From: Natronohydrobacter sp.
Lineage (GTDB): Bacteria > Pseudomonadota > Alphaproteobacteria > Rhodobacterales > Rhodobacteraceae
Direction: 5' to 3'
NCBI GenBank assembly: GCA_020832585.1
Contig: JAFIEL010000001.1
Location: forward strand, 1 to 64,000
Length of the DNA: 64,000 bases
Numbering within the stretch: the first letter of the stretch is position 1; every line of letters begins with the position of its first letter. Both the position numbers and the translations under genes were made by a program. Below are positions 15,863 to 45,295 of the stretch, one piece after another. The notes beneath the pieces were generated by a model. The model made no database searches. It saw only the letters and a list, made by a program, of their open reading frames with translations, and was not told the DNA's origin.

Positions 15863-15892
15863 ATTCCTGTTATGCAATTCTGGGAGCGGCAG

Positions 15893-20049: not shown

Positions 20050-20121
20050 CTTGTCCCCATTGGTCGCGTGTTTTTGAAGTGAAAACGCGGGCCAGACAAC
20101 TGTCTGACCCGCGCGATAATC

Positions 20122-21465: not shown

Positions 21466-21477
21466 GGAGTTGGTCCC

Positions 21478-22161: not shown

Positions 22162-22164
22162 GGC

Positions 22165-26391: not shown

Positions 26392-26399
26392 ACACAGGC

Positions 26400-26432
26400 G
26401 GGCGCGGTTCATCTTGGGCCGCGCCTTTTTTG
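26400..26432 (+). terminator. strong intrinsic terminator inside the dmm operon
   Basis: The stem GGCGCGG pairs with CCGCGCC (11-base loop) and is followed by six T. It lies nine bases after the dmmD stop and within 30 bases of the dmmA start, leaving no room for a separate promoter beyond it. It probably works as a partial terminator that sets the dmmD to dmmABC ratio. Confidence 0.85.
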
Positions 26433-26460
26433 CGACATGACAGACGGAGCAAAACCCCGG

Positions 26461-28028: not shown

Positions 28029-28040
28029 GAGAGAAATGCC

Positions 28041-29108
28041 ATGACCATCCAGTTCAATGACGAGACCTTCCGCGACGATTACACCTTCCGCAACTCGGAA
28101 TGGGCGATCAAGCGCTTTCCCTTCCCGTTCCACGAAGACAGCTACATGTATTCGGTGAACATGGAACAGCATCGCGGCGGGCCGAAGGGCTCGGTCTATG
28201 AAAAGCGCTTCGATGTGGACGAGCACTATATTTCCGAAATGCGCGACCGGGCGCTGGTGCTGGCCGATGATCCGCTGCGCTGCCAGTCGCTGCCGCATAT
28301 GACGCTGGCGGGGTGGGACTTGCTGGAGCTGATCATGGTCAGCAAATCCGAGGATTACCCCGACCTGTTCGAGCTGCACCGCAACGGCAACCAGTGGCGC
28401 TGGATCAACAAGCCGCTGGGCATTGATGACAGCTTCACCTTCATGGATGAAGCCAGCCTACCCTACGGGCCGATGGAGTATATCACCCGGCAGGCGCAGG
28501 GCGATTATGCGGTGCTCGACCAGCGCGAGAACAACCTGTGGATGGACGCGGGCATGGTCACGACCCAGGCCGACTGGTCGCTCGATTTCGACATCGGGAT
28601 GAATTTCTTCGAATGGCACGCGCCGGTGCCGCTCGCGCATGAAATGGGCGTGTTCAAGCGGGCGCTGAAATTCCTTCTGAACATCCAGCAGGGCAGCCCG
28701 GCGCGGCGGCTGAACTGGACGATGACGGTCAATCCGCTGTTGGATACCAGCCCAGAGAATTACCACAAATGGGGTCGCCAGAAGACCACGCTCACGCCCG
28801 AGAACCTGGGGCGCAAACAGCATCTGCGGGTCGAGTTGCAGACCTTCTACCGCCTGCCGCGCTCTAACGCGCTGGTCTTTCCGATCCGCTGCTACTTGAT
28901 CGCGCTAGAAGATCTGGTGACTGTCCCGAAATGGGGCCGCCGGTTGCACAGGGTGATCCGTGACCTGCCCGAGGAGCTTGCGACCTACAAGGGCTTCATC
29001 CGCAACCGCCCCATGATCCTCGACTATCTGGCGCAATATGACGACGGACTGCCTACATCCCCCGGCATCTGGCCCGATCTGGACACCGAACCCCCGCTAC
29101 AGAAATAG
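28041..29108 (+). CDS. dmmC: haem-dependent oxidative N-demethylase component (DUF3445)
   Basis: 355 residues of the DUF3445/HODM family, the catalytic haem component of dimethylamine monooxygenase, which converts dimethylamine to methylamine and formaldehyde with O2. Recognisable segments are WAIKRFPFPFHED, FEWHAPVPLAHEMGVF, LNWTMTVNPLL and ETQTF-like VELQTFYRLPRSNALVFPIR. A GAGAG site precedes ATG, and the gene follows dmmB by 12 bases. It is convergent with the XRE regulator, one base apart. Confidence 0.87.
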   Translation: MTIQFNDETFRDDYTFRNSEWAIKRFPFPFHEDSYMYSVNMEQHRGGPKGSVYEKRFDVDEHYISEMRDRALVLADDPLRCQSLPHMTLAGWDLLELIMVSKSEDYPDLFELHRNGNQWRWINKPLGIDDSFTFMDEASLPYGPMEYITRQAQGDYAVLDQRENNLWMDAGMVTTQADWSLDFDIGMNFFEWHAPVPLAHEMGVFKRALKFLLNIQQGSPARRLNWTMTVNPLLDTSPENYHKWGRQKTTLTPENLGRKQHLRVELQTFYRLPRSNALVFPIRCYLIALEDLVTVPKWGRRLHRVIRDLPEELATYKGFIRNRPMILDYLAQYDDGLPTSPGIWPDLDTEPPLQK

Positions 29109-29109
29109 G

Positions 29110-29772
29110 TCAGCCATTTTGCGGGTAACAGATGATCGACAGGTAGCGGGCCGGAAGCTTCTCCAACACCTCCGGCCCGTGCGGGGCATCCGCGTCGAAA
29201 AACAGCGTGTCACCGGGGCGCAGATGATAGAGCGAATTGCTGTGGCGATACTGCAATTCTCCTTCCAGCATGTAGATCGTCTCGATTCCGCCATGCTGGA
29301 AAGTGGGAAAAATATCCGATTCGGTGCTGAGCGTGATCAGATAGGGTTCGACCATGACGCCGCTGCCATTGGCCCCGATATGGCCCAGCAGATTGTACTG
29401 ATGCCCGGCCCGCGTGCCCGCGCGCTCGATCTCGACGCCTTCGCCCGCGCGAGTATGCACAGCCTCGCGATGTTCCTCGAATCCGCGAAAAAAGGATGTC
29501 AGTGGCACGCTCAGCGCATGGGCGAGTGTTTGGAGCGTGGTCAACGAGGGCGAAGTGTTGCCATTCTCGATCTTGGACAGCATTCCGATGGACAGTCCCG
29601 TGCGCGCCGCAAGCTCTGCAACCGTGATGTCTTTCTGCCGACGAAAGGCCCTTACTTCGCGGCCAATGGCCACTTCCAGCACATTCTCGCGTTCTTCGCG
29701 CAACCGGTGCGGATCCTGGCTGAGCTTTGCCTTCCGGTCCGGGGCGGCGGCTTTCTGGATCGCCTGAGACAT
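29110..29772 (-). CDS. XRE family regulator with cupin domain
   Basis: 220 residues from ATG 29772. The N-terminal helix-turn-helix (about 35-90) includes VAELAARTGLSIGMLSKIENG; the C-terminal cupin (about 140-215) includes HGGIETIYMLEGELQYRH and LRPGDTLFFDADAPHGPE. Such regulators sense a small metabolite and often control amine or amino-acid use. It is transcribed toward dmmC and divergently from the AraC regulator, 56 bases apart. Confidence 0.88.
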   Translation of the reverse strand: MSQAIQKAAAPDRKAKLSQDPHRLREERENVLEVAIGREVRAFRRQKDITVAELAARTGLSIGMLSKIENGNTSPSLTTLQTLAHALSVPLTSFFRGFEEHREAVHTRAGEGVEIERAGTRAGHQYNLLGHIGANGSGVMVEPYLITLSTESDIFPTFQHGGIETIYMLEGELQYRHSNSLYHLRPGDTLFFDADAPHGPEVLEKLPARYLSIICYPQNG

Positions 29773-29828
29773 GGGGGTTCCTTCAATCACGTTGTAGGCT
29801 ATCCTGCGGGCGCAGGAAAGGGTGTGGA

Positions 29829-30890
29829 ATGTTTCACGAGAGTATAAGTCGCAGCACCGGAAATGAAAATATCCATCTGGGAATCCTGATCTTCCCAGGT
29901 TTTCCGATGGCTTGTCTGACCTCGATGATCGAACCCTTGCGCGCTGCCAATGAGATTTCGGGAGAAACGGCGTTTCGCTGGACACTGATCTCGGAAACCG
30001 GCGCGCCTGTGGACAGCAGCGCGATGGTACGGTTTCATCCCTCTGCGGACCTGGTGACGGTGCGGGATCTGGATTATCTGATCGTGCTCAGCCCGCCTGA
30101 TGCGCGGTTTGACAACCCGCGGGCGGGTTTTGGCGCCCTGCGCGCGCTGGAACGGCATGGGGCTATTCTAGGGGGCGTTAGCGGCGGGGTGTTCCTGCTG
30201 GCGCGTGCGGGTGTGATGGAAGGGCATGTGACCTCTGTCCATTGGTGCTATGCTGCCGCTTTCGCCGATGAATTTCCGAACCACGCGACGACGGATGAAG
30301 TCATCATGCCAGACCGACGCCGCGTGACCGTCGCCGGAGCGGCGGCTGCATTTGATCTGGCGCTGATGATGATTGACAAGCGGCTTGGCGCAGATGTGAT
30401 GACCGAGGTTGCCTGCTGGTTCCAGCATCCGCTGGTCCGAGGCGAAGGCGTGCGTCAGAAGATCCCCGCCCCGCGTGTGGCCGTGACCGCTGACATGCTG
30501 CCCGAACCGCTGGCACGCGCTGTGCAGTTGATGTCAGAAAATCTGGAAGATCCGATCTGTATTGCCGATATCTGCGAGCAGATCGACATTTCTCCGCGCC
30601 ATCTGGAACGGTTGTTCAAGAAACTGACCGGCAAAAGCCCTTTGATCTATTACCGCAACATGCGACTGTCGGCAGCGCGGCAGTTGGTGATGTATTCAAA
30701 CCGCACTATGCGCGAGATTGCAGAGGCGATTGGTTATTCCAGCGCCAGCCCATTTCGTGCGCGCTATGCGGAGATTTATGGACTGACGCCGGAAGAGGAT
30801 CGGCACAAGATCAATATGTTTCGGGTGCGCGAGAATGCACCGCTGCCATCGAGTGCGGTGCCGATCAAAACACCGATTTCGCAACAGTGA
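29829..30890 (+). CDS. AraC-family regulator, GlxA type (DJ-1/PfpI plus AraC)
   Basis: 353 residues from ATG 29829. Residues about 15-190 form an amidotransferase-like DJ-1/PfpI sensor domain (LGILIFPGFPMACLTSMIEP, GVSGGVFLLARAGVM). Residues about 235-330 hold the double helix-turn-helix (ICIADICEQIDISPRHLERL, MREIAEAIGYSSASPFRARY). GlxA/GbdR-type members activate quaternary- and methylated-amine genes. A monomer contacts two adjacent helical turns, so it is one candidate reader of the 10-bp-phased repeats. Its 3' end overlaps mgdD by 26 bases. Confidence 0.9.
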   Translation: MFHESISRSTGNENIHLGILIFPGFPMACLTSMIEPLRAANEISGETAFRWTLISETGAPVDSSAMVRFHPSADLVTVRDLDYLIVLSPPDARFDNPRAGFGALRALERHGAILGGVSGGVFLLARAGVMEGHVTSVHWCYAAAFADEFPNHATTDEVIMPDRRRVTVAGAAAAFDLALMMIDKRLGADVMTEVACWFQHPLVRGEGVRQKIPAPRVAVTADMLPEPLARAVQLMSENLEDPICIADICEQIDISPRHLERLFKKLTGKSPLIYYRNMRLSAARQLVMYSNRTMREIAEAIGYSSASPFRARYAEIYGLTPEEDRHKINMFRVRENAPLPSSAVPIKTPISQQ

Positions 30891-31425
30891 CCAGCGCGTG
30901 ATGCAGGCTTTTCGCTGAAGAGCGTGGGCCGTAGATCGTGATGCTGTCTGCATGGCGGATCACATAGCAGCCCAGATGCTCGATCACGGTGCGCCGCGCG
31001 GTCCCGGCTTGCATCTTGCCCATGTCCAGATTGCACAGCCGTTCCATCAGGCGCGGCAGGTCGTCCCCGGTCAGATCGAACCGGACCCATGCGCCGGTCT
31101 GGTCGGTGACGCTGGCGGTATCGGCGCAGGTGGCCTTGATCTGGGCTGCGAGGTCGGGATGGGTGGCATAGGGGGCCTCAACCATCCAGATATGCGGGCC
31201 AATCCAGAAAGCCGAGAAGATAGCGCCGCTGGTATGGCCAGCAATGCCGGGGGCAGGGTTGCCCATAACTTTTTCAAGTGCGGCCTGAGAGGTTGCTTCC
31301 TGTCCCAGACGCGCAGCGACAGAGGTAAGCGCCCAATCTGGCGCTTCGGTGATCGTGACAGGGCCGATCGTGTCGCGGCGGGGGGCGGATGCGCCAAGCG
31401 GGGTCATGGGGGCCAGATCATGCAC
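30865..31425 (-). CDS. mgdD: N-methylglutamate dehydrogenase subunit D (sarcosine oxidase gamma-like)
   Basis: 186 residues homologous to the gamma subunit of heterotetrameric sarcosine oxidase (SAIFSAFWIGPHIWMV-type core, ATCADTASVTDQTGAWVRF). I chose GTG 31425 because AAGGAGAG lies nine bases before it; it overlaps the mgdC stop by eight bases. An ATG at 31407 has no such site. It is the last gene of mgdA-mgdB-mgdC-mgdD. Confidence 0.88.
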   Translation of the reverse strand: MHDLAPMTPLGASAPRRDTIGPVTITEAPDWALTSVAARLGQEATSQAALEKVMGNPAPGIAGHTSGAIFSAFWIGPHIWMVEAPYATHPDLAAQIKATCADTASVTDQTGAWVRFDLTGDDLPRLMERLCNLDMGKMQAGTARRTVIEHLGCYVIRHADSITIYGPRSSAKSLHHALVTVAKSVF

Positions 31426-34363
31426 GGAGGCGCTCTCCTTCCGGGTCAACAAAATGCGCCGAGACGATTTCGATCTCGACATCCTCGCCGGTCAGCGGGC
31501 TGGCGGCGCGCAGGGTTTCGCCCATCCGGGCTTGCCCGTTTTTCAGGAAACCTATGGCGATGTAGCTTTCCAGCGTGGGCGAATAGCAGGCGGATGTGAC
31601 ATAGCCCAGATCATTCGCCACGACCATTGCCGCCCCTTTTTCAAGCAGATGCGCGCCCGCCGGGATGCGGGTTTGCGGGTTTTTGGGACGGAAACCCACA
31701 AGCCTCAAGGCGTCGGGCATGGTCAGCCCTTCGCGGCGCGACAGGACTGCGCCGATGCTGTCTTTCTTGTCACTGACCATGCGGCCCATGCCAAGGTTGA
31801 GTGCCGTGGTCTGGCCGTTCAACTCATTGCCTGCCGCATGGCCCTTCTCGATGCGCATGACGCCAAGGGCTTCGGTGCCATAGGGTGTGACATCAAATTC
31901 CGCCCCTTCGGCCATAATGCGCCGGATCAGCGCATCGCCGTAGCGGGTGGGGACGGCCAGTTCATAGGCCAGTTCCCCCGAGAATGAGATGCGGAACAGT
32001 CGTGCCGGGCAGCCATTGCAGACGGTAATTTCGGCGCAGGCCATGAAGGGGAAAGCGTCATTCGAGATGTCGAACGCAGGGTCCACGATCTTCTGCAGCA
32101 GCTTGCGCGCATTGGGGCCAGCGATGGCATATTGTGCCCAGGCTTCGGTCGTCGAGATCAGTTGCACATCCATGTCGGGCCAGAGGCATTGGCGCGCGAA
32201 TTCCATGTGGCGATAGACGGCAACGGCATTGGCGGTGGTGGTGGTGACGACGAAATGATCCTCTGCCAGCCGCGCGGCAGTGCCGTCATCATAGGCGATC
32301 CCATCTTCGCGCAGCATCAGCCCGTAGCGGACACGGCCCACGGGCAGTTTGGCGAAGGCGTTGCAATAGATGCGGTTCAGGAATTCGGCGGCGTCAACGC
32401 CCTGCACGTCGATCTTGCCCAGGGTGGTCACATCGCAGACCCCGACCGAGTTGCGGGTCGCGCGCACTTCGCGGTCCACGCTTTCGCGCCAGGTTTTTTC
32501 GCCCGGACGCGGGAACCATTGCGCGCGGAGCCACATGCCCACTTCGACAAAGACCGCGCCCTGTTCCTTGGCCCAGTGATGGCTGGGGGTCAGACGGGTG
32601 GGACGGAAATCGGTGCCGGTTGAGCGGCCCGCCAGCACACCCATCGCCACAGGCGTATAGGGCGGGCGGAACATGGTGGTGCCGGTCTGGGCGATGGTCT
32701 GGCCCGTCAGTTCTGCCATGACCGCAAGCCCGCCCATATTCGAGGTCTTGCCCTGATCCGTCGCCATGCCAAGCGTGGTGTAGCGTTTCAGATGCTCGAC
32801 TGAGCGGAACCCTTCCTGATGGGCGAGTTTCACGTCCTTGACGGTCACATCATTCTGGAAATCCAGCCAGGCGCGCTTGTCGCCCCTCACATGCCAGAAG
32901 GGGGTGATCTTCGTGGGCGCATCTTCGGCCTGTGGCAAGTCTGGCTTCGTCGTAGTGATGCCGAGGTCGTTCAGCGCCTGCGCGGCCTTGGTGGCCCCGC
33001 CTGCGAGCGCGGCATGGGTGCTGAACTGCCCTTCCGCCGCGCCTGCGATGGTCATGCCCTGCGGCAGATCGCCAGCGGGGATGAAAGCGGCGATGCTGTC
33101 ATCCCATGCGGGCCGTCCGCGCTGGTGGCAGGTCATGGCGACATTGGGGTTCCAGCCGCCTGAAACGCCCAGCGCGCCGACAGCAAGTTTGCGGGTCTGG
33201 CCATTGGCGAGTTTCACCGTGATCCCGGCCAGGCCCAACCGCCCGGAGGTGTCGATCACCTGCGCCCCAGCAATCAGTTCCGTACCTGCGGGTTTGGGGG
33301 CATCCGCGCGCGTATCGATCAGGGCTACGACCTTCACGCCCTTGGCGATCAGGTCAGCGGCGGTGCGGTGGCCGTCGTCATTGTTGGTAAAGACAGCGAC
33401 AGTCTCGGCGGGCGATGCGGCCCAGCGATTGACATAGGCGCGCAGCGCGCTGGCGGTCATGATGCCGGGGCGGTCATTATTGGCAAAGGCAATCGGGCGT
33501 TCCAGCGCGCCCGCACAAAGCAGCGTGCGTTTTGTGTAGATGCGCCAGAGTGTCTGGCGGGGCTTGCCATCCTGTGGCGTAGGCAGGTGGTCCGAGACGC
33601 GCTCGACCGCGCCGTAGATGCCGTGGTCAAACGCGCCGAAAACGGTCGTGCGCGGCATCAGGCGGACATTGGACAGGGTGGTGAGTTCTGCGACAGCTTG
33701 TGCGGCCCACGCGCTGCCCGCCATGTCGCTGATCGCAAAGGTCTCGGCGTTGAGCCGCCCGCCCATGCGGAAATCCTCATCCGCGAGAATGACCCGCGCA
33801 CCGGCGCGGCCAGCCGTGAGTGCCGCCATCAGACCCGAAGGACCAGCGCCGATGATCAGCAGGTCGCAATGCAGGAAGCCTTTGTCATAGGCGTCCGGGT
33901 CGGGCTTTGTCGTGATCGAGCCAAGACCAGCGGCGCGGCGGATGATCGGCTCGTAGAGCTTTTCCCAGAAGGCTGCGGGCCACATGAAGGTCTTGTAATA
34001 GAAGCCTGCGGTCAGGAAGGGCGACAGCCGATCATTGATCGCGAGCGCGTCGAATTTCAGGCTGGGCCAGGCGTTTTGCGGCTCGGCCCGCAACCCGTCG
34101 AAGAGTTCGATCACGGTGGCGCGCGTGTTCGGTTCCTGCCGCCCTCCACTGCGCAACTCGACCAGTGCGTTGGGTTCGTCGCTGCCAGCGGTCAGCACCC
34201 CACGCGGGCGGTGATACTTGAACGACCGCCCCATCAGCCGCACGCCATTGGCCAGAAGGGCAGAGGCCAGCGTGTCGCCGGGATGGCCTTTGTAATACTG
34301 CCCGTCAAAGCGAAAGCTGATCGTGGTGTCGCGGTCGATCTGGCCGCCTGTCCTGAGCCTCAT
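31418..34363 (-). CDS. mgdC: N-methylglutamate dehydrogenase subunit C (sarcosine oxidase alpha-like)
   Basis: 981 residues. It starts with a ferredoxin-like part (FDGQYYKGHPGDTLASALLA), then a dinucleotide-binding domain ([21 protein letters not shown]), and ends in a GcvT/tetrahydrofolate-binding half (from about 600; ISFSGELAYELAVP). The complex oxidises N-methylglutamate to glutamate and passes the methyl carbon to tetrahydrofolate. It overlaps mgdB by ATGA. Confidence 0.92.
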   Translation of the reverse strand: MRLRTGGQIDRDTTISFRFDGQYYKGHPGDTLASALLANGVRLMGRSFKYHRPRGVLTAGSDEPNALVELRSGGRQEPNTRATVIELFDGLRAEPQNAWPSLKFDALAINDRLSPFLTAGFYYKTFMWPAAFWEKLYEPIIRRAAGLGSITTKPDPDAYDKGFLHCDLLIIGAGPSGLMAALTAGRAGARVILADEDFRMGGRLNAETFAISDMAGSAWAAQAVAELTTLSNVRLMPRTTVFGAFDHGIYGAVERVSDHLPTPQDGKPRQTLWRIYTKRTLLCAGALERPIAFANNDRPGIMTASALRAYVNRWAASPAETVAVFTNNDDGHRTAADLIAKGVKVVALIDTRADAPKPAGTELIAGAQVIDTSGRLGLAGITVKLANGQTRKLAVGALGVSGGWNPNVAMTCHQRGRPAWDDSIAAFIPAGDLPQGMTIAGAAEGQFSTHAALAGGATKAAQALNDLGITTTKPDLPQAEDAPTKITPFWHVRGDKRAWLDFQNDVTVKDVKLAHQEGFRSVEHLKRYTTLGMATDQGKTSNMGGLAVMAELTGQTIAQTGTTMFRPPYTPVAMGVLAGRSTGTDFRPTRLTPSHHWAKEQGAVFVEVGMWLRAQWFPRPGEKTWRESVDREVRATRNSVGVCDVTTLGKIDVQGVDAAEFLNRIYCNAFAKLPVGRVRYGLMLREDGIAYDDGTAARLAEDHFVVTTTTANAVAVYRHMEFARQCLWPDMDVQLISTTEAWAQYAIAGPNARKLLQKIVDPAFDISNDAFPFMACAEITVCNGCPARLFRISFSGELAYELAVPTRYGDALIRRIMAEGAEFDVTPYGTEALGVMRIEKGHAAGNELNGQTTALNLGMGRMVSDKKDSIGAVLSRREGLTMPDALRLVGFRPKNPQTRIPAGAHLLEKGAAMVVANDLGYVTSACYSPTLESYIAIGFLKNGQARMGETLRAASPLTGEDVEIEIVSAHFVDPEGERLRA

Positions 34364-34647
34364 CTGCTGCGCCCCATGCTGCGCGCGACATCACGCGCGA
34401 GTTCGACCGATGTGATTTCATGCGTCACGGTGTTGCGGGTGACGACCAGCCAGGAGCGGTCGCCCTGTTCGTGATACCAGAGTTCGCGATGTTCGCCCGC
34501 CGGGTTGTCGCGCAGATAGGCGTAGTCGTAAAAGGCTGCGTCAGTGCCGTCAGCCATGCCGTCGGGGCGGTCGATCAGGCTTGCATCGCCCTTGTAGACG
34601 AATTCCTGCGCGTCGCAGGGACCGAGGAGGGGGTGGTTGATGATCAT
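34360..34647 (-). CDS. mgdB: N-methylglutamate dehydrogenase subunit B (sarcosine oxidase delta-like)
   Basis: 95 residues of the SoxD family, a small zinc-binding subunit that clamps the alpha and beta subunits. The tail YLRDNPAGEHRELWYHEQGDRSWLVVTRN is characteristic. The usual N-terminal CPxCG pair reads HPLLGPC here, so at least one Zn ligand differs from sarcosine oxidase. Confidence 0.88.
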   Translation of the reverse strand: MIINHPLLGPCDAQEFVYKGDASLIDRPDGMADGTDAAFYDYAYLRDNPAGEHRELWYHEQGDRSWLVVTRNTVTHEITSVELARDVARSMGRSR

Positions 34648-34690
34648 GGCTGCTCTCGCAAGCGCTGCGCCGGGATGCGGCGGGGGGATT

Positions 34691-34712
34691 GAGTATTTTT
34701 GGCAAGATGAAA
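34691..34712. repeat. Rhodobacteraceae-type intergenic motif
   Basis: In the 76-base gap between mgdA and mgdB the plus strand reads GAGTATTTTTGGCAAGATGA. I recall near-identical sequence (TTCATCTTGCCAAAAATACTC on the other strand) ahead of GC-rich runs in many Rhodobacteraceae intergenic regions. Only one copy was noticed here. Confidence 0.5.
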
Positions 34713-34723
34713 CATGAGCGGGG

Positions 34724-35974
34724 TCAGTGCAGATTGGGCTGTGCGCCCATGCCTTTTTCGTCGATCAAATAGCCGCGCTCGAAGCGGTCGAAGCGGTAGG
34801 CGGTGGCGGTCTTGTGGGGCGTGTCGGTGGCCAGAAGATGCGCGAAGCACCAGCCTGAGGCGGGCGTGGCCTTGAACCCGCCATAGCACCAGCCGCCGTT
34901 GAAATAGAGCCCGTCGATATGAGTGCGGTCGATGATCGGCGAGCCGTCCATGCTCATGTCCATGATGCCGCCCCAGATGCGCAGCAGGCGCACGCGGCCA
35001 AGACCGGGGAACAGCGCCATGCCGCCTTCGGCCACATCCTCGATCACGGGCAGGTTGCCGCGCTGGGCGTAGGAATTGTAGCCGTCAATGTCGCCGCCGA
35101 AGACAAGGCCGCCCTTGTCGGACTGGCTGCAATAGAAGTGACCCGCGCCAAAGGTGATGACGCCAGGCAGGACGGGTTTCAGCCCTTCGGAGACAAAGGC
35201 TTGCAGCGCGTGGGATTCGATGGGCAGGCGCATGCCCGCTTTTGCCATGACGCGCGACGAACTGCCTGCGACCGCGACTCCGACCTTGCCCGCGCCGATG
35301 AAGCCGCGCGACGTCTCGACGCCAAGGCATTTGCCGTTCTCGATGCGGAAGCCCGTGACTTCGCAATTCTGGATGATGTCCACCCCGCGGCTGTCCGCGC
35401 CGCGCGCATACCCCCAGGCAACTGCATCATGGCGCACGGTCCCGCCCCGGCGCTGGGCAAGGCCGCCCTTGATCGGGAAGCGGGCATTGTCGTAGTTCAG
35501 GAAGGGATATTCGCGTTTGAGTTGGGCGACGCTCAGGAGTTCGGCATCTGCGCCGTTCAGGATCATGCCATTGCCGCGCCGGATAAAGGCATCACGCTGG
35601 GCATCCGTATGGATCAGGTTCAGGATGCCGCGCTGGCTGACCATGGCATTATAGTTGAAATCCTGTTCCAGCCCTTCCCAGAGCTTGAGGGAAAACTCGT
35701 AGAACGGCTCATTGCCATCGAGCAGATAGTTCGAGCGGATGATGGTGGTGTTGCGCCCCACATTGCCGCCGCCGATCCAGCCCTTCTCGATCACGGCGAT
35801 ACGGTGCTGGCGAAATTCCTTGGCCAGGTAGTAGGCCGTGGCCAGACCATGCCCGCCGCCGCCCACGATGACGATGTCATAGTGTGGCTGGGGATCGGGG
35901 TCGCGCCAGGCGGGGGTCCAGCCCTTGTGGCCTGTCAGGGCCTCTTTGAGAACGCGAAAGCCGGAATAGCGCAT
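34724..35974 (-). CDS. mgdA: N-methylglutamate dehydrogenase subunit A (sarcosine oxidase beta-like)
   Basis: 416-residue FAD-dependent oxidoreductase of the DAO family. The dinucleotide-binding motif DIVIVGGGGHGLATAYYLAKE is near residue 30, and the C-terminal DGSPIIDRTHIDGLYFNGGW closes the flavin site. It oxidises the N-methyl group of N-methylglutamate. First gene of the leftward mgdABCD operon, divergent from the second amt-like gene. Confidence 0.93.
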   Translation of the reverse strand: MRYSGFRVLKEALTGHKGWTPAWRDPDPQPHYDIVIVGGGGHGLATAYYLAKEFRQHRIAVIEKGWIGGGNVGRNTTIIRSNYLLDGNEPFYEFSLKLWEGLEQDFNYNAMVSQRGILNLIHTDAQRDAFIRRGNGMILNGADAELLSVAQLKREYPFLNYDNARFPIKGGLAQRRGGTVRHDAVAWGYARGADSRGVDIIQNCEVTGFRIENGKCLGVETSRGFIGAGKVGVAVAGSSSRVMAKAGMRLPIESHALQAFVSEGLKPVLPGVITFGAGHFYCSQSDKGGLVFGGDIDGYNSYAQRGNLPVIEDVAEGGMALFPGLGRVRLLRIWGGIMDMSMDGSPIIDRTHIDGLYFNGGWCYGGFKATPASGWCFAHLLATDTPHKTATAYRFDRFERGYLIDEKGMGAQPNLH

Positions 35975-36533
35975 GGCGAGCCTCGTGGTTGCTGGCCTCT
36001 CCTAGCGCGTTTTCGCGGCAATCAGGCGCTGAAAACTGACAGGCTTGGCGTCAAATGCGACTCGATGATGTGTTCTGCTGGCGATGAAGGTGCGTCGGTG
36101 AGAGCGGGGTCGTACACAAGCATACAGAATTAAACGATTTTCTGTGGCGGTGCGGAGACTCTGAAGGTCCGGGCGCGTGATGGAGGCATGTCGTCAAATC
36201 CGGCCTTGAGACCGGGCGTTACGCAGTTTCAGAACGATTCGTGCCCGGGTTTGCAGTGCGGTCTGTGTGACATCCGGCCGATCTGGAGTGGTGAACCAGA
36301 TTGATCCAATTGGCACCAGAACTGCTCAAGAAACCGGATTCTGAGAAAAATATATTCCCCAAATTAAATTTTTCTTTTGAAAAATGCCAGAACTGCGGCA
36401 ATCTGTCCCTGTTTCAGCGCCCAGTGGTGGGATGTCTGGACCAAAACAAGACCAGTTCCGGTGTATTGGTCTCAGTCGCCGGTGCAGGCCAAGGGCAGGA
36501 AGGCCCTAAACATCCTCACAACAGGAGAGGGAT
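35975..36533. other. 559-bp divergent regulatory region (mgdA / second amt)
   Basis: No gene is visible. It contains three decamer ACCA-type repeats at 36293-36322, two more at 36438-36458 (11 apart), an inverted TTGGTC at 36475, and a very A/T-rich stretch at about 36349-36385. The half next to mgdA (35975-36280) shows no such repeats. Confidence 0.65.
36293..36322 (+). promoter_or_regulatory. three 10-bp-phased ACCA-type repeats before the second amt
   Basis: Decamers GAACCAGATT, GATCCAATTG and GCACCAGAAC lie head to tail. The first is identical to a decamer in the dmm leader. They are 212 bases upstream of the amt-like gene and 320 upstream of mgdA, so they could serve either. Confidence 0.5.
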
Positions 36534-37904
36534 ATGTCACTCAATCTCGCAACGGTTCAGGCTGATCAGGTCAGCCTGGCCTCGCTGGTACAAAACCTTG
36601 TCTATGCCTCTGGCACGGTCGGCGCGATCATGGTCGTGGTCGGCCTGCTGATGATCGACGCAGGGACGACGCGCAGCAAGAACCTGCTGACCTCGACCAT
36701 CGAGAAGCTGATGGGCTTCTTCATCGGGTTTGCGGTCTATTTCCTGATCGGCTTCGCGTTCTGGGCCGCGCAATATTACGTCATGGAAGAGGCCACGCTG
36801 GGCGATTCCATCGCTGATTGGTGGTTGGGCGGCGGCATGGTCAATGCTCGTGCGCATGAAGTGCCCGGCGATGTGTTCCCGGGGCTGAACAACTTCCAGA
36901 TCTTCGTGTTCTTCCTGGCCTGCTTTGCCGGGATCATCAATGTTCTGTTGCATTTCGCTGTCGCCGAACGGATGAAGGCTGCGGCCTATTTTGTGATGTG
37001 TATCGCCGCGACGCTGGTCTCTTCCGCGCTGAGTTGGGCGACATGGGGGTCGGTCGGGCCGCTGACCAATCCTGGTTTCCACGACTTCTTCGGGGTGGGC
37101 TTCGTCTATCTGTTCCCGGCAGGCATGGCGCTGGTGCTGGTGCCGAAACTGGGGGCGCGTCCGGGCATGTTCGCGCCGCACCCCAAAGTGCCCAGCTATA
37201 ATGCACCGAGCATCGGGCTGGCTGCGACGGGTCTGATGACGATTTTCGCAGGCCTGCCCATGGTGATCCTGTCGTGCCTGTTCTTCTTCGACCCCGAGGC
37301 GCTGGCCGTGTCGGTGACGATGGCGAATACCTCTGTCGGTATCGCGTTCAACAATTACGGTTTGGCTTGGGCCGGTGGTGCAATCTCGGGTCTACTGATC
37401 GCGTACAAGACGCGCAATTACGCCTATACCCTGCTGGGGCCGCTTGCAGGCTATGTTGCGGGCGCTTCGGGTTTTGATGTCTATCTGCCTTGGCAGATGT
37501 TTGTGGTGTCACTGGGCGCGCCATTTGTCGCATGGGCGGTCTATGAGTTCACGCTCAAGCGCGGAATCGACGAGCACAAACTCTTTCCGCTGTTCCTTGG
37601 GGCTGGTTCCTACGGCTTGGTGATGCTGGGGATTTTCAAGGCAGGCACACCGCGCGGTGGCTATCTGGGGATCGAAGAAGGCGCCTATGCTTTCCAGCAT
37701 GGCCAGATCGGGATCGTGATGCAGGTTGTGGGCACGCTGGCCTGTATTGGTGCCGGCGCGGTCACGGCGTTGGTTGTGGGGTTCATTCTGGACAAGACCA
37801 TCGGCTTGCGCATCAGTGAGGACGAGCAGGCCGAAGGGCTGGACGAGAAAATCTGGGATGTGAAGCATGAAGGGGATTCCATTGTCCTGAAACCTGCCGA
37901 GTAA
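36534..37904 (+). CDS. Amt-family membrane protein lacking the twin pore histidines
   Basis: 456 residues, about 11 helices; it aligns well with AmtB (AERMK, the WG.GFHDFFG region, GLRISEDEQAEGLDEKIW tail). Asp184 of the DFFGVGFVY motif is kept, but the AmtB His168 position is Tyr192 and the His318 position is Phe354 (FPLFLGAGSYG). Loss of both histidines should change or block ammonium conduction. It lies within the methylamine cluster, opposite mgdABCD, so it could carry methylated amines or act as a sensor. AGGAGAGGG precedes ATG. Confidence 0.88.
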   Translation: MSLNLATVQADQVSLASLVQNLVYASGTVGAIMVVVGLLMIDAGTTRSKNLLTSTIEKLMGFFIGFAVYFLIGFAFWAAQYYVMEEATLGDSIADWWLGGGMVNARAHEVPGDVFPGLNNFQIFVFFLACFAGIINVLLHFAVAERMKAAAYFVMCIAATLVSSALSWATWGSVGPLTNPGFHDFFGVGFVYLFPAGMALVLVPKLGARPGMFAPHPKVPSYNAPSIGLAATGLMTIFAGLPMVILSCLFFFDPEALAVSVTMANTSVGIAFNNYGLAWAGGAISGLLIAYKTRNYAYTLLGPLAGYVAGASGFDVYLPWQMFVVSLGAPFVAWAVYEFTLKRGIDEHKLFPLFLGAGSYGLVMLGIFKAGTPRGGYLGIEEGAYAFQHGQIGIVMQVVGTLACIGAGAVTALVVGFILDKTIGLRISEDEQAEGLDEKIWDVKHEGDSIVLKPAE

Positions 37905-37946: not shown

Positions 37947-38084
37947 CTGCGATGAAAGCCCACTGGCGTTTTCGGCTGTCACTAATTATGTGAGGATAAA
38001 AGTAATACCCGTCTGCATATTGCGCGCCTGTTGTGCAAACCCGCAGCGGAATTGAAGGTTGGTGAAACGAGAGTGGGACTGCGA

Positions 38085-38804
38085 ATGGCCACCAGACTGG
38101 ATGCGGAGCTGATCTCTGGGCATAGCGTTGGTGGAACAGTGCAGGTGGTCATCGACACGCTGTTTGCCAAGATCAAGGCGGAAGAGTATCCCGCCGATAC
38201 GCGACTTCCCAGTGAACGCTCTCTGGCGGCAGATCTTGGTGTGTCACGCAATACAGTGCGTGAAGCGCTGGATGTGCTGGAGTCCCATGCGATCATCCGT
38301 CGTCGTGCTGGCAGCGGCAGTTTTGTGATCTGGCGCGCAAGTGCGGCACCTGACAATCAGCCTGACAGCGTGGCCGAGCGGACCAGCCCTCTGGATCATC
38401 TGGTGGTGCGCAGTATCATCGAGCCAGAGATGGTGCGCCTGGCCACAATCAACATGAGTCCGCGGGAGTTGGACGAACTGGATGCGATTGTCTCGCGTAT
38501 TGAATCTGTGCGAACAGATGTGACCGAATTCGTTACTTGCGAGGAAGACCTTTATCGCAAGATTGCCCAGGGAACGCGCAATCCCTTGCTGGAATCCTGC
38601 TATGAACTAACGATTGCGGTCTGTCGGCAGAGTTTCCGGACAGCCCTGATGCGGCGGCATCTGACGCCTGATCGGATTGCAGAATACCAGAAGCGCTATA
38701 ACACGCTGTTCAATGCGATTGCCTCGCGCGATGTCGAGGCGGCGGTCGAGTTCATCAAGCTACATCTGATCGAAGAACAGAAGCTGTTGTTGCACGAGGG
38801 CTGA
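38085..38804 (+). CDS. GntR/FadR-family transcriptional regulator
   Basis: 239 residues from ATG 38085. The winged helix-turn-helix (RLPSERSLAADLGVSRNTVREALDVLE) is followed by an all-helical FCD effector domain with RSIIEPEMVRLA and the late HLIEEQKLLL helix. FCD regulators bind small carboxylates. The frame opens at a TTG at 38031, but the family starts near this ATG. The context suggests control of the adjacent amine genes; the operator is unknown. Confidence 0.88.
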   Translation: MATRLDAELISGHSVGGTVQVVIDTLFAKIKAEEYPADTRLPSERSLAADLGVSRNTVREALDVLESHAIIRRRAGSGSFVIWRASAAPDNQPDSVAERTSPLDHLVVRSIIEPEMVRLATINMSPRELDELDAIVSRIESVRTDVTEFVTCEEDLYRKIAQGTRNPLLESCYELTIAVCRQSFRTALMRRHLTPDRIAEYQKRYNTLFNAIASRDVEAAVEFIKLHLIEEQKLLLHEG

Positions 38805-38846: not shown

Positions 38847-40148
38847 CTAAGTCAAAAAGCTACGCAGTGCCGGGCTTGCAACGTCTGATAAGCGTCCGAA
38901 TCTCTGGTGCCATAGCTGACCAAGATCCGACATTTCATCAAATAACAGCGCTTCATGTTGTGAAAGCCAGTTGGGGATGGATTCGAAGCTGACGATCCGC
39001 GCCTTTCCTTCTTCGATCCTGACAACTGGCCAATCTCCGATCAGGGCATTGTCGATCCCGAACAGGTTCTCGCCCCACCATTGCGCAGGCCCGAACGCAT
39101 GGCTGACCGTTCCCATCTGTTTCATGGCCGCCATGACAGAGGCAGCGCTCAGTGCACCCACTTTCTCGACGGCGGCATGCCAGATGTCCAGGATCGCGGC
39201 ATATTCCCAACTGACAGCGCTCCACGTCCCTGGAAAGCGACGTTGGTATTCACTGTAGAACAGGCTTGGCTGGTTGAAGAAGAACGCCTTTTCAGTGAGT
39301 GCCGGATCGTCGAAATCGGGGAACTGGAAGATGGTCCCTTCCATGAACTCAGGCGATGTGCGCGCGATCAGGCGATCATACTGGTCCATCGTGCAGGACA
39401 GGATTGTTCCAGTGAAGCCCTGTGCATGGGCGTATTCGGTCATCGCATGAACCATTGGCGTGTAGCTGGTGCACCAGCACAGCACATCCGGGTTCGCGGC
39501 CAGCATTGGATCTACGATAGCCGCCACATCGGTCTGATCCGGGGGGTATTGAACTTCGGCACAGAGTGACATGCCGGTAGCCCGCAGCGCGGCGCGATAA
39601 GTGGCAAGCGAAGGCAGACCGAAGGAATCGCGCTGGCTGCACAGGGCGATGCGTTTCAGCTCCGGCCGCGTCCGCGCGAGCCAGGCGACAGCGGTGACGT
39701 TATAGACCGGGTGCACCTCTGACGGCGCAATCAGGGTGCGCATGTCGGGTGACAGGTCCGTAGGCAGCAGGGTCGAGGCGACAACCTTGTGGGTGTTCAG
39801 AAAATCTCTCAAGGGCGCGACCGTGTCGCCGCCCAGCATCATCAGGAGTGCTGCCTTGTCCGAGAGAACGAGTTTGCGCGCAGCTTCGAGCACCTGATCG
39901 GGGGATGTGGCCGAATCCTCGGCGATGATGCGCACTGGATAGCGCCGACCTGCGATCAAGGCGCCCCCTGCGGCATTGAGCCAGTCCTGCCAGATCTGGC
40001 ATCCGTTCAGTCCCGGTAGGCCCCAGGACGCCGCAGGCCCGCTGAGCGGCACAAGCATGCCGATGGTGATCTCTTGCGTCATGCCCACGCGGTAGCTGGG
40101 CAAGAGGCTGCGCATGGCGATCCGATGGGCGAAGCTGGGCTCGTTCAT
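38847..40148 (-). CDS. orphan Peripla_BP_6 (LIV/amide-binding type) protein without signal peptide
   Basis: Up to 433 residues. The fold starts ITIGMLVPLSGPAASWGLPG, as in UrtA, FmdD and AmiC proteins, and continues with RIIAEDSATSPDQVLEAARKL and LMMLGGDTVAPLRDFL. No hydrophobic signal sequence precedes it; the true start may be Met-23 (40082). No permease or ATPase gene of the same system is nearby. This pattern resembles AmiC, a cytosolic amide sensor, more than a transporter subunit. It is divergent from tmm. Confidence 0.8.
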   Translation of the reverse strand: MNEPSFAHRIAMRSLLPSYRVGMTQEITIGMLVPLSGPAASWGLPGLNGCQIWQDWLNAAGGALIAGRRYPVRIIAEDSATSPDQVLEAARKLVLSDKAALLMMLGGDTVAPLRDFLNTHKVVASTLLPTDLSPDMRTLIAPSEVHPVYNVTAVAWLARTRPELKRIALCSQRDSFGLPSLATYRAALRATGMSLCAEVQYPPDQTDVAAIVDPMLAANPDVLCWCTSYTPMVHAMTEYAHAQGFTGTILSCTMDQYDRLIARTSPEFMEGTIFQFPDFDDPALTEKAFFFNQPSLFYSEYQRRFPGTWSAVSWEYAAILDIWHAAVEKVGALSAASVMAAMKQMGTVSHAFGPAQWWGENLFGIDNALIGDWPVVRIEEGKARIVSFESIPNWLSQHEALLFDEMSDLGQLWHQRFGRLSDVASPALRSFLT

Positions 40149-40316: not shown

Positions 40317-41663
40317 ATGTCCCAGAAAAGAGTTGCCATTATCGGTGCAGGCCCATCTGGTCTTGCGCAGTTGCGCGCCTTTCAATCTGCCGCCGCCAAT
40401 GGCGAGGCAATTCCCGAGATTGTCTGTTTCGAGAAACAAAGTGACTGGGGTGGGTTGTGGAACTACACATGGCGCACCGGATTGGACGAGAATGGCGAGC
40501 CTGTGCATTGCTCGATGTATCGCTATCTGTGGTCAAACGGTCCCAAGGAAGGGCTGGAATTCGCCGATTATTCCTTTGAAGAGCATTTCGGCAAGCAGAT
40601 CGCTTCTTACCCGCCGCGCGCCGTGCTGTTCGACTATATCGAAGGGCGCGTGAAGAAGGCAGGCGTGCGTGACTGGATCCGGTTCAGTTCGCCCGTGCGC
40701 TGGGTGGACTATGATGACAGCACGGGTCTGTTCACGGTTACAGTTCATGACCATGAGAAGGACCATGTCTATTCCGAGACCTTCGATCATGTCATCGTCG
40801 CCTCTGGGCATTTTTCGGTGCCGAATGTCCCGCACTATCCGGGTTTCGAGACCTTCAATGGCCGCTTGCTGCACGCCCATGATTTCCGCGATGCCCGTGA
40901 ATTCGCGGGCAAGGACATTCTGGTGATGGGCGCGTCCTATTCCGCCGAGGATATCGGGTCGCAATGCTGGAAATACGGCGCGAAATCGATCACGTCCTGC
41001 TACCGGTCGGCACCGATGGGGTTCAAATGGCCGGCAAACTGGGAAGAGAAACCTGCGCTGGAGCGTGTCGAGGGCAACACGGCCCATTTCAGCGATGGCA
41101 CATCAAAACATGTCGATGCGATCATCCTGTGCACGGGTTACAAGCATTTCTTCAATTTCCTGCCCGACGACCTGCGCCTGAAAACCGCGAACCGGCTGGC
41201 CACGGCAGACCTGTATAAGGGCGTGGTCTGGGTGCATAACCCCAAGGTCTTTTATCTTGGGATGCAGGACCAGTGGTTCACGTTCAACATGTTCGATGCG
41301 CAAGCCTGGTGGGTGCGTGATGCGATCATGGACAAGATCGAGATTCCTTCCGACAAGGACACGCTGCTGGCGGATGTGGCAGAGCGTGTGGCGCGCGAAG
41401 ATGCCGGAGAAGATACGAAATACGCGATCCAGTATCAGGCCGATTACGTCAAGGAACTGGTGGCGGAAACCGACTATCCGTCGTTTGACATTGACGGGGC
41501 ATCGGAAGCTTTCTTCGAGTGGAAAAAGCACAAGGCCAAGGATATCATGGCGTTTCGCGACAACAGTTACCGCTCGGTCATCACCGGCAGCATGGCACCT
41601 GTGCATCATACGCCGTGGAAAGATGCGCTCGATGACAGCATGGAGAGCTATCTGGAGAACTGA
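40317..41663 (+). CDS. tmm: trimethylamine monooxygenase (flavin-containing)
   Basis: 448-residue class B flavoprotein. FAD motif [17 protein letters not shown] is at the N terminus, the FMO-type segment [14 protein letters not shown] and the NADP motif [14 protein letters not shown] are central, and [10 protein letters not shown] follows. Bacterial Tmm oxidises trimethylamine to TMAO with NADPH and O2, the first step of this pathway. Length and motifs fit Tmm of Roseobacter and SAR11. It stands alone with its own promoter and terminator. Confidence 0.93.
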
Positions 41664-41872: not shown

Positions 41873-42859
41873 ATGCAAAAAACGACTTATTCAAAGATCG
41901 CCACAGCTTGTGCCGCGAGCATGTTCCTGTTTGGTGCGTCCGCAGCGTCGGCAGATGATTGCCCCAATCGCGGGGATCTGGATGACATGTTCTGCGATGT
42001 CGATGGCGATCTGGTTGCGGATACACCAGCAGATCCGTCACAGTGGCGCGATCCCTCGACGCTGGTTTTCGCCTATACGCCTGTCGAAGACCCGGCAGTC
42101 TATGCCAATATCTTTTCGGATTTCGTTGACTATCTGGCAGAGTGCACTGACCGCAATGTCGTGTATTTCAATGTCCAGTCGAACGCAGCACAGATCGAGG
42201 CAATGCGCTCGGGGCGGTTGCATATCGGCGGTTTCTCGACGGGGCCGACCGGTTTTGCCGTGAACCTTGCGGGGGCTGTGCCATTTGCCGTAAAAGGCGA
42301 TGTAGAGGATTGGCAGGGCTACAATCTGATCGTGATCGTGCGGGCAGACAGCGACATTCATGACCTGACCGATCTGGCAGGCAAGCGGATGGCGCACACG
42401 TCCGCTTCGTCCAATTCGGGGAATCTGGCCCCGATGGCGCTTTTCCCCGATGCCGGTCTGACACCGGGAGAGGATTACGAAGTGCTTTTCTCGGGCGGGC
42501 ATGACAACTCGGTCATGGGCGTCGATTCGGGCGACTATGACGGGGCAGCGGTCGCTTCGGACGTGTTCGAGCGGATGGCGCGGCGCGGGCAGGTCAATGA
42601 GGATGATTTCCGTATCGTCTATACCTCCGAGCGGTTCCCGACATCGTCTTTCGCTTATGACAGCCGCCTTGCGCCAGAACTGCGTGATACGATGCTGGCA
42701 TGTTTCCTGGACTATACCTTTACCGAAGACATGCAGCGCGAATTTGGCGGGGCTGACCGGTTCTTCCCGGTGACATATGCCGAACATTGGGACGTCGTCC
42801 GTCGCGTCGCAGATGCGTCCGGCGCACCGTTTAACCGGACGACCTGGGAAAGCCAGTGA
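41873..42859 (+). CDS. phnD: phosphonate-type ABC transporter substrate-binding protein (PhnD family)
   Basis: 328 residues with a signal peptide ending near ASAASADD (about residue 25). The PhnD core is visible: [36 protein letters not shown], the [15 protein letters not shown] loop that contacts the phosphonate oxygens, and [20 protein letters not shown]. The ligand may be a phosphonate, phosphite or a phosphate ester. GGGAGGAG precedes ATG; the stop overlaps phnC by GTGA. Confidence 0.88.
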
Positions 42860-43686
42860 GCGTCGCGGAAGACCGGACAAGCCGGAGCGCAATGCGCGCT
42901 CCGGCAAGGGACGCAGCGCGGAGCAATGTGCTCTCGCTGCGCAACCTGACCAAAGCTTATGAGCGCGGCAAGCCCGTGCTTTCAGATATCTCGCTGGACT
43001 TCCCTGCGCGTGGTGTGGTCGCGATTATCGGACCTTCCGGCACGGGGAAATCCACGCTGATCCGCTGTATCAACCGGCTGGTAGAGCCGACCTCGGGGCA
43101 GGTCTTGCTGGGGGACACGGATCTGACGACGCTGCGTGGGGCGGCTCTGCGTGCTGCGCGTCGCGAAATCGGGATGGTGTTTCAGGAATACAACCTGGTT
43201 GAACGTCTGAGCGTGATCGAGAACCTGCTCTGCGGGCGTCTTGGCTATGTGCCGCTTTGGCGTGTCTGGATGCGCCGCTTTCCCGACGATGATATTGCCC
43301 GTGCTTTCGCTCTGCTGGAGCGCGTGGGCCTTGCCGAATTCGCCACGCGGCGCGCAGATGCGCTGTCAGGTGGCCAGCGTCAGCGTGTCGGGATCGCGCG
43401 CGCGGTCATGCAATCACCGCGACTGTTGCTTGCTGACGAGCCGACTAGCTCACTTGATCCGCGGACATCTGTCGAGATCATGGAATTGATGCGCGACATG
43501 GCGGCGGAACGCGATATCCCGGTGATCATCAACATTCATGACGTGGCTCTTGCGCGGCGCTTTGCCAGCCGGATTGTCGGCATGTCGGGCGGATCAGTGG
43601 TCTATGACGGGCCGCCCGAGGGGCTGAATGATGAGCATCTGACCCAGATCTATGGGCGCAGCGAAACAGGCGGCTGGATCGGATGA
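42856..43686 (+). CDS. phnC: phosphonate-type ABC transporter ATP-binding protein
   Basis: 276-residue ABC ATPase: Walker [10 protein letters not shown], signature [14 protein letters not shown], Walker [13 protein letters not shown], and the switch His in NIHDVALA. The GTG start overlaps phnD and the stop overlaps phnE1. The extra 25 residues at the N terminus are weakly conserved; an inner ATG is possible but lacks a ribosome binding site. Confidence 0.9.
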
Positions 43687-44483
43687 GTATGCGACAGACG
43701 GAACTGGATCAGATTCGCGCCCGCGCTTTTGCGCCAGACTGGCGTATGCGGGCCGTCTGGCTGGGCTTTGCGGTCTATGTGATCTATGCGACAGGTCAGT
43801 TGAATTTCACATGGGAACGTTTTGTTGTCGGACTGGATCGCGGGGCGACCTTTCTCGGCCGGATGTTTCCGCCGGAATTCACGCGTTGGGAATTATTGGC
43901 GGAAGGGCTGCTGGAAAGTCTTCAGATCGCGATCATTTCATCAGCCATCGGTATCTTGTTGTCGCTGCCGATTGGTCTGATGGCGGCGCGAAATCTGATG
44001 CCTGTGGCCGTGACCGTGCCCGCGCGCGCATTCATCGCCCTCGCGCGATCCTTTCACCCGATCATCATTGCGATCATTTTCGTCAAGGCGATTGGCTTCG
44101 GACCACTGGCAGGCATCTTCGCACTGATCTTTGCGTCGATCGGGTTCGTCGCGAAGCTCTTTGCCGAAGCGATCGAGGAGATCTCGCTCAAGCAGGTGGA
44201 AGCCGTACGCGCAACAGGAGCCAGTTTCATGGGTGTCGTGATAATGGGGGTGCTGCCGCAGGTGTTTTCGCGCTTCATCGGCTTTGCCACATATCAGTTG
44301 GACAGCAATCTGCGCCAATCGACCATGGTCGGAATCGTTGGCGGTGGCGGGATCGGGGGGACGCTCTTCTCTGCCTTCCGCCGGTTTGATTATGATTTCG
44401 TCTGCGCGATCCTGATCTCCATTATCGCCATGATCATGGTGGGTGAATTGATTGCCTCTTGGCTGAGAAAGACTTTCCAGTGA
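43683..44483 (+). CDS. phnE: phosphonate-type ABC transporter permease 1
   Basis: 266-residue inner-membrane permease with about six helices. The ATPase-docking EAA loop reads [20 protein letters not shown], followed by the PhnE-type [30 protein letters not shown] segment (in two parts). Coupled by ATGA to phnC and by GTGA to the second permease. Confidence 0.9.
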
Positions 44484-45295
44484 GCGTGACAACAACCACA
44501 CCGCCCTCGGGCCCGACATGGCAGCGCTTTACTCCCGCAGAGCGGCTTGCCCGTTATGCCGTCTATCTGGTCGCGGTCATGGCACTGGTCTGGTCGGTGC
44601 GCAATGTAAGTATCATCCCCGAGTTCCTCTATGATGCGCATACCCAGATGGCCGATCTGCTGACCCGCATGTGGCCGCCTGATCTGAGCTATTATCCGAC
44701 AACCGTGCATGGCGCGCTGATAGAGACCTTGCACATCGCAACACTCGGCACGATTCTGTCCATCGTGATGGCGGTGCCTATAGGGTTGATGGCCGCCCGA
44801 AATATCGTACCGTTCCGGGCCGTGAACGAGTTTGCGAAACTGATCCTCGTTGCCTCGCGCTCGGTCAATTCGCTGGTCTGGGCGCTGCTTTTCGTGGCGA
44901 TCTTTGGCCCCGGCGCGCTGGCAGGCACAATCGCGATTGCGTTCCGGTCCATCGGCTTCGTGGGCAAACTATTTGCCGAGGCGGTGGAAGAAGCCAGCCC
45001 CGGCCCGATCGAGGCGCTGACCGCCGCCGGGGCAAGCTGGCCTGCGCTGCTTCTCAAGGGTTATTGGCCACAGGTGCAGCCAGCCTTTTGGTCGATCGCC
45101 CTGTTTCGCTGGGATATCAATGTGCGCGAATCTGCTGTGCTGGGGCTGGTGGGGGCTGGCGGCATCGGGTTGGTGCTGGACACGGCGATGAACTTCTTCC
45201 AGTGGACGCGCGTCGCCACGATCCTTCTGGCCATTTTCGCGGTCGTGGTTCTAGCTGAGATTCTTGTCACCCAAATCCGCAAGCGGTTGATCTGA
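44480..45295 (+). CDS. phnE: phosphonate-type ABC transporter permease 2
   Basis: 271 residues from the GTG that overlaps the phnE1 stop; the frame is open from 44459 but that part lies inside phnE1. It is a paralogue of phnE1 with the same EAA loop (EAVEEASPGPIEALTAAGAS) and the INVRESAVLGLVGAGGIG segment. Two PhnE copies presumably form a heterodimeric channel. Confidence 0.9.
   Translation: MSVTTTTPPSGPTWQRFTPAERLARYAVYLVAVMALVWSVRNVSIIPEFLYDAHTQMADLLTRMWPPDLSYYPTTVHGALIETLHIATLGTILSIVMAVPIGLMAARNIVPFRAVNEFAKLILVASRSVNSLVWALLFVAIFGPGALAGTIAIAFRSIGFVGKLFAEAVEEASPGPIEALTAAGASWPALLLKGYWPQVQPAFWSIALFRWDINVRESAVLGLVGAGGIGLVLDTAMNFFQWTRVATILLAIFAVVVLAEILVTQIRKRLI

Follow-up and report, generated by a model that had tools for sequence, protein, structure and literature searches.

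In the present study, we analysed a stretch of 64,000 nucleotides from the genome of Natronohydrobacter sp. (GCA_020832585.1, contig JAFIEL010000001.1, positions 1 to 64,000; hereafter the window) and found that it encodes, within a cluster for the degradation of trimethylamine (TMA), its N-oxide (TMAO), dimethylamine (DMA) and monomethylamine (MMA), a protein of the Amt/Mep/Rh superfamily in which both histidines of the conserved pore pair (twin-His) are replaced, the first by Tyr and the second by Phe. We coined the label AmtY for this product of the open reading frame (ORF) at 36534-37904. The Tyr/Phe pair is a fixed trait of its clade and not a chance occurrence, and the reading that we favour, with a probability of slightly under one half (about 0.48), is that AmtY would be an uptake channel for methylammonium, perhaps for dimethylammonium too, that feeds the N-methylglutamate pathway.

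MAFFT and an HH profile-profile alignment agree in placing Y192 on H168 and F354 on H318 of Escherichia coli AmtB; an alignment artefact was rejected on these grounds, and a one-residue gap that the HH alignment opens just before K349 leaves the twin-His columns unaffected. Tyr/Phe is found in all 120 homologues examined of the 788 that passed a first search (70-97% identity), the named closest relatives belonging to Natronohydrobacter (92-96%) and Roseinatronobacter. A second search, seeded with an actinobacterial member, passed 686 proteins, of which 120 were examined, and the two lists together hold 232 distinct proteins with Tyr in 232/232 and Phe in 230/232 (exceptions Leu and Met). Among 80 rows of genome-locus members from alpha-, beta- and gammaproteobacteria and Actinomycetota, Tyr is present in 77/77 and Phe in 78/78 of the covered rows, the remaining ones being gapped. 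The H168/H318 pair of canonical ammonium transporters is hence absent clade-wide, and a lone mutation or sequencing error was rejected for the same reason. His-His was found in 70/70 control Amts, which are the best matches of the AmtY query in genomes of the class rather than a random draw of Amts, so that the loss of both histidines is unusual among the bacterial Amts sampled here (0/70 controls), as had been anticipated. The other AmtY histidines H140, H183 (immediately before D184), H216 and H348 are conserved in 231 or 232 of the 232 homologues; they were considered as stand-ins for the pair, but all lie outside its columns, although H140 may still occupy a pore position.

Phylogenetic analysis of 61 rows recovered a single clade (SH-aLRT 100) containing the 24 AmtY rows, which a branch of 4.92 changes per column separates from the midpoint root. 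Since long branches meet here, as a program warning indicated, the position of the clade within the Amt family is not fixed by this tree. The family tree and the twin-His columns of close homologues, which the original prediction had proposed as a check, thus agree on one separate clade with a near-invariant Tyr/Phe pair. An ordinary gradation of Amts was rejected as well: in 385 genomes of the class, among which the source genome is the sole AmtY carrier, the next matches after its own protein have at most 33% identity, with no intermediates above that value. In three loci the AmtY match is split over two open frames (L103, 9986-11382; L105, 542-1725; L108, 2-972), possibly by frameshifts or assembly errors. 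One further locus (L099, record title Enemella evansiae, an actinobacterium) was not counted as actinobacterial; its title looks mislabelled, because the corresponding genome G424 shares GmaS and Tmm contigs and coordinates with G433, which is placed in the window's own family.

Apart from the pair, AmtY has the features of an Amt protein. Its ORF is intact by ORF map and sequence (ATG 36534 to TAA 37904, + strand, 456 aa), with an AGGAG-like site directly 5' of the ATG, and PF00909 is its sole Pfam family at E <= 0.001 (113 bits, cut-off 23.2), matched at profile positions 9-393 of 399 and thus across the length of the profile. The predicted structure, a monomer model, matches Amt structures in fold, which together with the Pfam result sets AmtY apart from the BCCT family; a PDB sequence search with AmtY gave no match at E <= 0.001. 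Identity to AmtB is 22% in the HH alignment. AmtY scores 124.2 bits against TIGR00836 (cut-off 343.3), and since Amt2, a second Amt of the window that keeps both histidines, also falls below this cut-off (183.1 bits), the TIGR00836 score alone does not separate the two. The outer-site residues F107, W148 and D160 of AmtB are kept as F131, W171 and D184 (232/232 each), as is the C-terminal tail motif (GLRISEDEQAEGLD in AmtY, GLRVPEEQEREGLD in AmtB), directly behind which W441 is followed by the last 15 residues. No second Pfam domain, fusion or C-terminal signalling domain was found in the Pfam scan. In public records, proteins of the AmtY type are, where named, ammonium transporters, and a few are called hypothetical protein.

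The original prediction, made from the letters of the window, had described an Amt-family protein inside a methylamine cluster, with Tyr192 and Phe354 at the twin-His positions and with Asp184 and the tail motif retained. The Pfam match to the intact ORF, the two concurring alignments and the profile matches for tdm, gmaS, tmm and mgd bear this out, yet the extent of the change was understated. Judged from the sequence, W212 of transmembrane helix 6 (TM6) is lost beyond the pair, its counterpart L241 being Leu in 228 and Ile in 4 of the 232 homologues. F215 and S219 are probably lost too: gapless mapping along the helix, which the structure model places at residues 227-248, makes V244 (Val 206, Ile 26) and C248 (Cys 232/232) their counterparts, whereas MAFFT puts F251/E255 there, behind a gap. 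The V244/C248 assignment is inferred, because both MAFFT and HH open a gap in this stretch.

The association with methylamine metabolism is seen in the loci as well as in the genomes. We examined 79 AmtY loci over stretches of 4.8 to 21.4 kb, with identity limits set gene by gene and with tmoR not counted as a methylamine gene, and one or more methylamine genes are present in 46 of them. Searches of three plasmids by tblastn with the window genes place AmtY together with mgs, gmaS, mgd, tmoR, tmm, tdm and dmm in a single run (Paracoccus sp. MA), with tmoR, tmm and tdm (P. alcaliphilus), or with tmoR, the binding protein, tmm, dmm and Amt2 (Ponticoccus). For the genome searches, 47 of the 79 loci were used, near-duplicate strains, fragments and short contigs having been left out by eye. 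Matches were found for GmaS in 45 of these genomes, for MgsC in 44, for Dmm (DUF3445-type) in 35, for Tmm and Tdm in 34 each, and for an Amt2-type protein in 29. The GmaS figure is made up of 44 genomes that match at E <= 1e-95 and of G415, in which GmaS lies in two pieces; at E <= 1e-20 all 47 genomes match, but ordinary glutamine synthetases are then included. Five genomes are without Tmm, Tdm and Dmm matches, and four of the five keep the GmaS match (G412, Methylophilaceae; G421, a gammaproteobacterium; G425 and G426, Actinomycetota; all metagenome-assembled by title). The AmtY carriers examined are, near-universally, methylamine users, and MMA is the commonest denominator that they share. 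In a control of 149 genomes of the window's family, AmtY occurs in 5, GmaS in 45 and Tmm in 34, and all 5 AmtY genomes have GmaS and Tmm (chance of a 5/5 overlap 0.002 and 0.0005, respectively, uncorrected for kinship). Of twenty neighbours in 14 loci, mostly without a nearby methylamine gene, 13 had a Pfam match at E <= 1e-15, namely to transporters, a transposase, a sulfotransferase and similar, none with an evident methylamine role; as these neighbours are uninformative, the loci without a methylamine gene nearby rest on the genome-wide co-occurrence.

Since the twin-His pair is Tyr/Phe in nearly all close relatives examined, AmtY would likely be a gate devoted to methylated amines and not to ammonium. 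From our point of view, the cation would still be attracted to the outer site of Asp184, Trp171 and Phe131, the Phe gate would be opened with Val244 replacing F215, and the methylated amine could then cross a wider, hydrophobic and aromatic pore without a His-pair relay, so that, as we propose, competition by ammonium would be reduced. The amtY gene might be induced along with the mgd/tmm genes via the divergent promoter region and the adjacent tmoR. In evolutionary terms, we tentatively consider that an Amt branch dropped the twin-His relay and remodelled its pore, with Tyr/Phe at the centre, an opened Phe gate and Cys at the outer site, into a channel for methylated amines by which ammonium is excluded or ignored, and that this branch spread over Proteobacteria and Actinomycetota alongside methylamine metabolism.

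The initial suggestion had been a changed substrate or a sensor. The fixation of the Tyr/Phe pair, the wider remodelling of the pore and a methylamine pathway that is near-universal among the carriers examined support the first part. The second part, in the form of a non-conducting sensor or a regulator of TmoR/TmaR, appears very improbable to us: although 28 of the 29 genome loci with tmoR have it next to AmtY, there is no second Pfam domain, the tail is AmtB-like, and glnK is absent from the window and present in the examined stretch of 1/79 loci. Moreover, 50 of the 79 loci hold AmtY without tmoR in the examined stretch, by the chosen identity limit, and in both Paracoccus plasmids tmoR does not adjoin AmtY.

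A number of observations weigh against methylammonium uptake. AmtB engineered without both histidines lost methylamine transport too (PMC3647058), and His substitutions in Mep2 and AmtB left the discrimination between ammonium and methylammonium unchanged (PMC9040831). The engineered mutants, however, have an otherwise ammonium-tuned pore, whereas in AmtY the whole neighbourhood of the pair is changed. On the genomic side, 33 of the 79 loci have no methylamine gene in the examined stretch. In 14 of the 45 genomes GmaS is a candidate by a match of less than 50% identity; MgsC lies within 5 kb in 11 of these 14, and the three without it are G393, G425 and G426, the latter two being also two of the four genomes with GmaS only. 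G414 (Thiotrichaceae UBA4486) lacks GmaS, Tmm, Tdm and Dmm, its sole match being MgsC (54%), and G423 has Tmm and neither GmaS nor MgsC. Finally, AmtY is absent from 40 of the 45 family genomes with GmaS and is therefore an accessory of methylamine use.

Two further objections concern the identity of the amine. In many Rhodobacterales the local wiring to tmoR-tmm points to DMA or TMA, as tmoR follows AmtY within 400 bp in 28/29 genome loci with tmoR, with tmm mostly beyond, and the main effector reported for TmoR is DMA (PMC13390433). Amt2, in turn, adjoins mgsA in the window and could serve MMA. One could thus imagine that AmtY conducts di- or trimethylammonium instead of MMA, with the aromatic Tyr/Phe pore binding the more methylated cation via cation-pi contacts, in line with the aromatic boxes in which the BCCT protein TmaT holds TMA (PMC11708041). 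We regard this as unlikely, if still worth serious attention: 13 of the 47 AmtY genomes are without a Tmm match and 12 without a Dmm match (TMA/DMA dehydrogenases and the mau route lay outside the search), and in the four genomes named above GmaS is the only one retained among GmaS, Tmm, Tdm and Dmm.

It is also conceivable that AmtY conducts ammonium as other Amts do and that Tyr/Phe is a tolerated variant, which we consider improbable. The predicted fold, the counterparts of D160, W148 and F107 and the tail motif are retained, and the twin histidines and the aromatic triad of AmtB can reportedly be replaced. The Tyr/Phe pair is, however, near-invariant, limited to one long-branched clade and absent from the 70 controls, and AmtB and Mep2 variants without both histidines lose selective transport (PMC3647058, PMC9040831). 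Furthermore, the genome already carries a glnK-linked Amt. The source genome, a draft of 3.3 Mb with 86.6% completeness, has three PF00909 genes, amtY, amt2 and a third one on contig C34, which lies directly downstream of a glnK whose product is 54% identical to E. coli GlnK. The lack of a glnK neighbour in the AmtY loci is a weak criterion, and other Amts can also be without one.

Slightly less probable still is a two-way leak that releases surplus ammonium from methylamine breakdown. In simulation, a double-His variant of AmtB was no longer unidirectional (PMC3647058), and ammonium is released by methylamine degraders (PMC7574528), but such a leak would be costly where amines are a nitrogen source only, as reported for R. 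pomeroyi (PMC13390433).

With regard to the putative methylammonium uptake by AmtY, the second Amt of the window deserves attention. Amt2 starts with GTG and, as predicted for the Amt at 23.3 kb, keeps D172, H180 and H353. Relative to AmtB, it carries Ala for F103, Trp for Y140, Phe for W212 and Cys for S219, and each of the four states recurs in 21/70 class controls. It lies between mgsA and dmmD, and a 72% identical relative is placed likewise in Ponticoccus p-SCP4. Amt2 is as such a second candidate for methylammonium transport.

The features of the window are compiled in Table 1. In the dmm region, the ORF at 25255 is GcvT-like and that at 26886 reductase-like, both below the cut-offs, and the ORF at 28041 has no NCBIfam match; the ORFs at 26437, 26886 and 28041 share 58%, 52% and 78% identity with genes of Paracoccus sp. 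MA that are annotated as DmmA family, PDR/VanB oxidoreductase and DUF3445. The mgd names were assigned from the cluster context. In R. pomeroyi, TmoR is SPO1553, a GntR-family regulator near tmm, and TmaR is SPO1584 (PMC13390433), for which no motif is given in the text of that paper. The Peripla_BP_6 protein between tmoR and tmm is an orphan and is matched also in 28/79 AmtY loci. At 13909-15807, 12620-13912 and 2324-3307, the window further encodes a type I secretion ATPase, an HlyD adaptor and an ORF with a weak, below-cut-off match to RTX proteins.

Table 1. Coordinates of AmtY residues and of the surrounding genes in the window
Feature	Position	Strand	Basis or remark
tdm, TMAO demethylase	15872-18262	+	NF053776 1229 bits, cut-off 1100
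gmaS	18730-20049	-	TIGR03105 673 bits, cut-off 470
mgsC, mgsB, mgsA	with gmaS in 18730-23061	-	glutamate-synthase-, FwdC- and amidotransferase-type matches below cut-offs
amt2, twin-His kept	23338-24690	+	PF00909 187 bits
dmmD and dimethylamine monooxygenase genes	25255-29108	+	ORFs at 25255, 26437, 26886, 28041
AraC-type regulator at tmaR position	29727-30890	+	GbdR-like match below cut-off; between dmm and mgd as SPO1584 (PMC13390433)
mgdD	30865-31482	-	TIGR01375 below cut-off
mgdA, mgdB, mgdC, sarcosine-oxidase-like N-methylglutamate dehydrogenase	31418-35974	-	TIGR01373, TIGR01372 over cut-off, TIGR01374 below
divergent intergenic region mgdA (-) / amtY (+)	35975-36533		ORF map, sequence
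Asp184 codon	37083-37085	+	column of AmtB Asp160, kept
Tyr192 codon TAT	37107-37109	+	column of AmtB His168; MAFFT, HH alignment
TM6 stretch L241-C248	37254-37277	+	W212 = L241; gapless mapping F215 = V244, S219 = C248
Phe354 codon TTC	37593-37595	+	column of AmtB His318; MAFFT, HH alignment
GntR/FCD regulator, TmoR by position and type	38031-38804	+	Pfam GntR+FCD
Peripla_BP_6 substrate-binding protein	38847-40148	-	Pfam
tmm, trimethylamine monooxygenase	40317-41663	+	NF058570 839 bits, cut-off 675
phosphonate-type ABC transporter (binding protein, ATPase, two permeases)	41873-45295	+	family profiles

Compared with canonical Amt/AmtB proteins (PF00909; TIGR00836), AmtY is alike in predicted fold, outer-site Trp/Phe/Asp and tail motif, and differs in Tyr/Phe for the twin-His, Leu for W212, probably Val/Cys for F215/S219, its low score (124 against 343 bits) and its low identity to AmtB. 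In the Rh30 proteins (RhD/RhCE) the pore histidines are lost as well. Unlike AmtY, these are erythrocyte antigens without a methylamine link. This subset of the superfamily is said to have lost transport (PMC10433425). A natural change of the pair is also found in fungal Mep proteins, as the original prediction had noted, a number of them having Glu at the first His according to the introduction of PMC3647058; there, one residue is altered, to an acidic one, whereas in AmtY both are altered, to aromatic ones. Engineered AmtB and Mep2 variants lack both histidines as AmtY does, but they were made in the laboratory and conduct in an impaired or channel-like manner (PMC3647058, PMC9040831), in contrast to a natural and conserved clade. 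TmaT of Myroides profundi is a characterised TMA transporter and thus a case of dedicated methylated-amine uptake in a marine bacterium, which differs from AmtY in being a Na+/TMA symporter of the BCCT family (PMC11708041). The amt of a gmas-mgsABC-amt operon has been called an inner membrane methylamine transporter (PMC8292978); Amt2 is likewise an Amt in a methylamine operon and differs from AmtY by keeping both histidines.

Genes marked as amt, ammonium transporter, or as amtB appear in methylamine clusters in the legends of PMC7574528 and PMC5520151, which do not state the Amt type. The place of such genes in these clusters is thus already known under the name of an ammonium transporter, and it is the clade with a Tyr/Phe pore that appears undescribed: in the literature searched (titles and abstracts, subscription papers mostly outside), we found no Amt clade with Tyr/Phe at the twin-His positions, no mention of SPO1554, the tag inferred for the R. 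pomeroyi orthologue, and no characterised mono- or dimethylamine uptake route in marine methylamine degraders, and the main text on a transporter-mutant screen in R. pomeroyi names neither methylamine nor amt (PMC10130141).

Substrate choice and movement in Amt proteins and the role of the twin-His pair are still debated (PMC10433425), and the double-His material in the literature examined consists of poorly working engineered mutants. A strongly conserved clade that naturally lacks the pair hence offers a direct test of what the twin histidines do. For marine methylamine degraders, AmtY may further fill a gap, namely that of an uptake route for mono- or dimethylamine.
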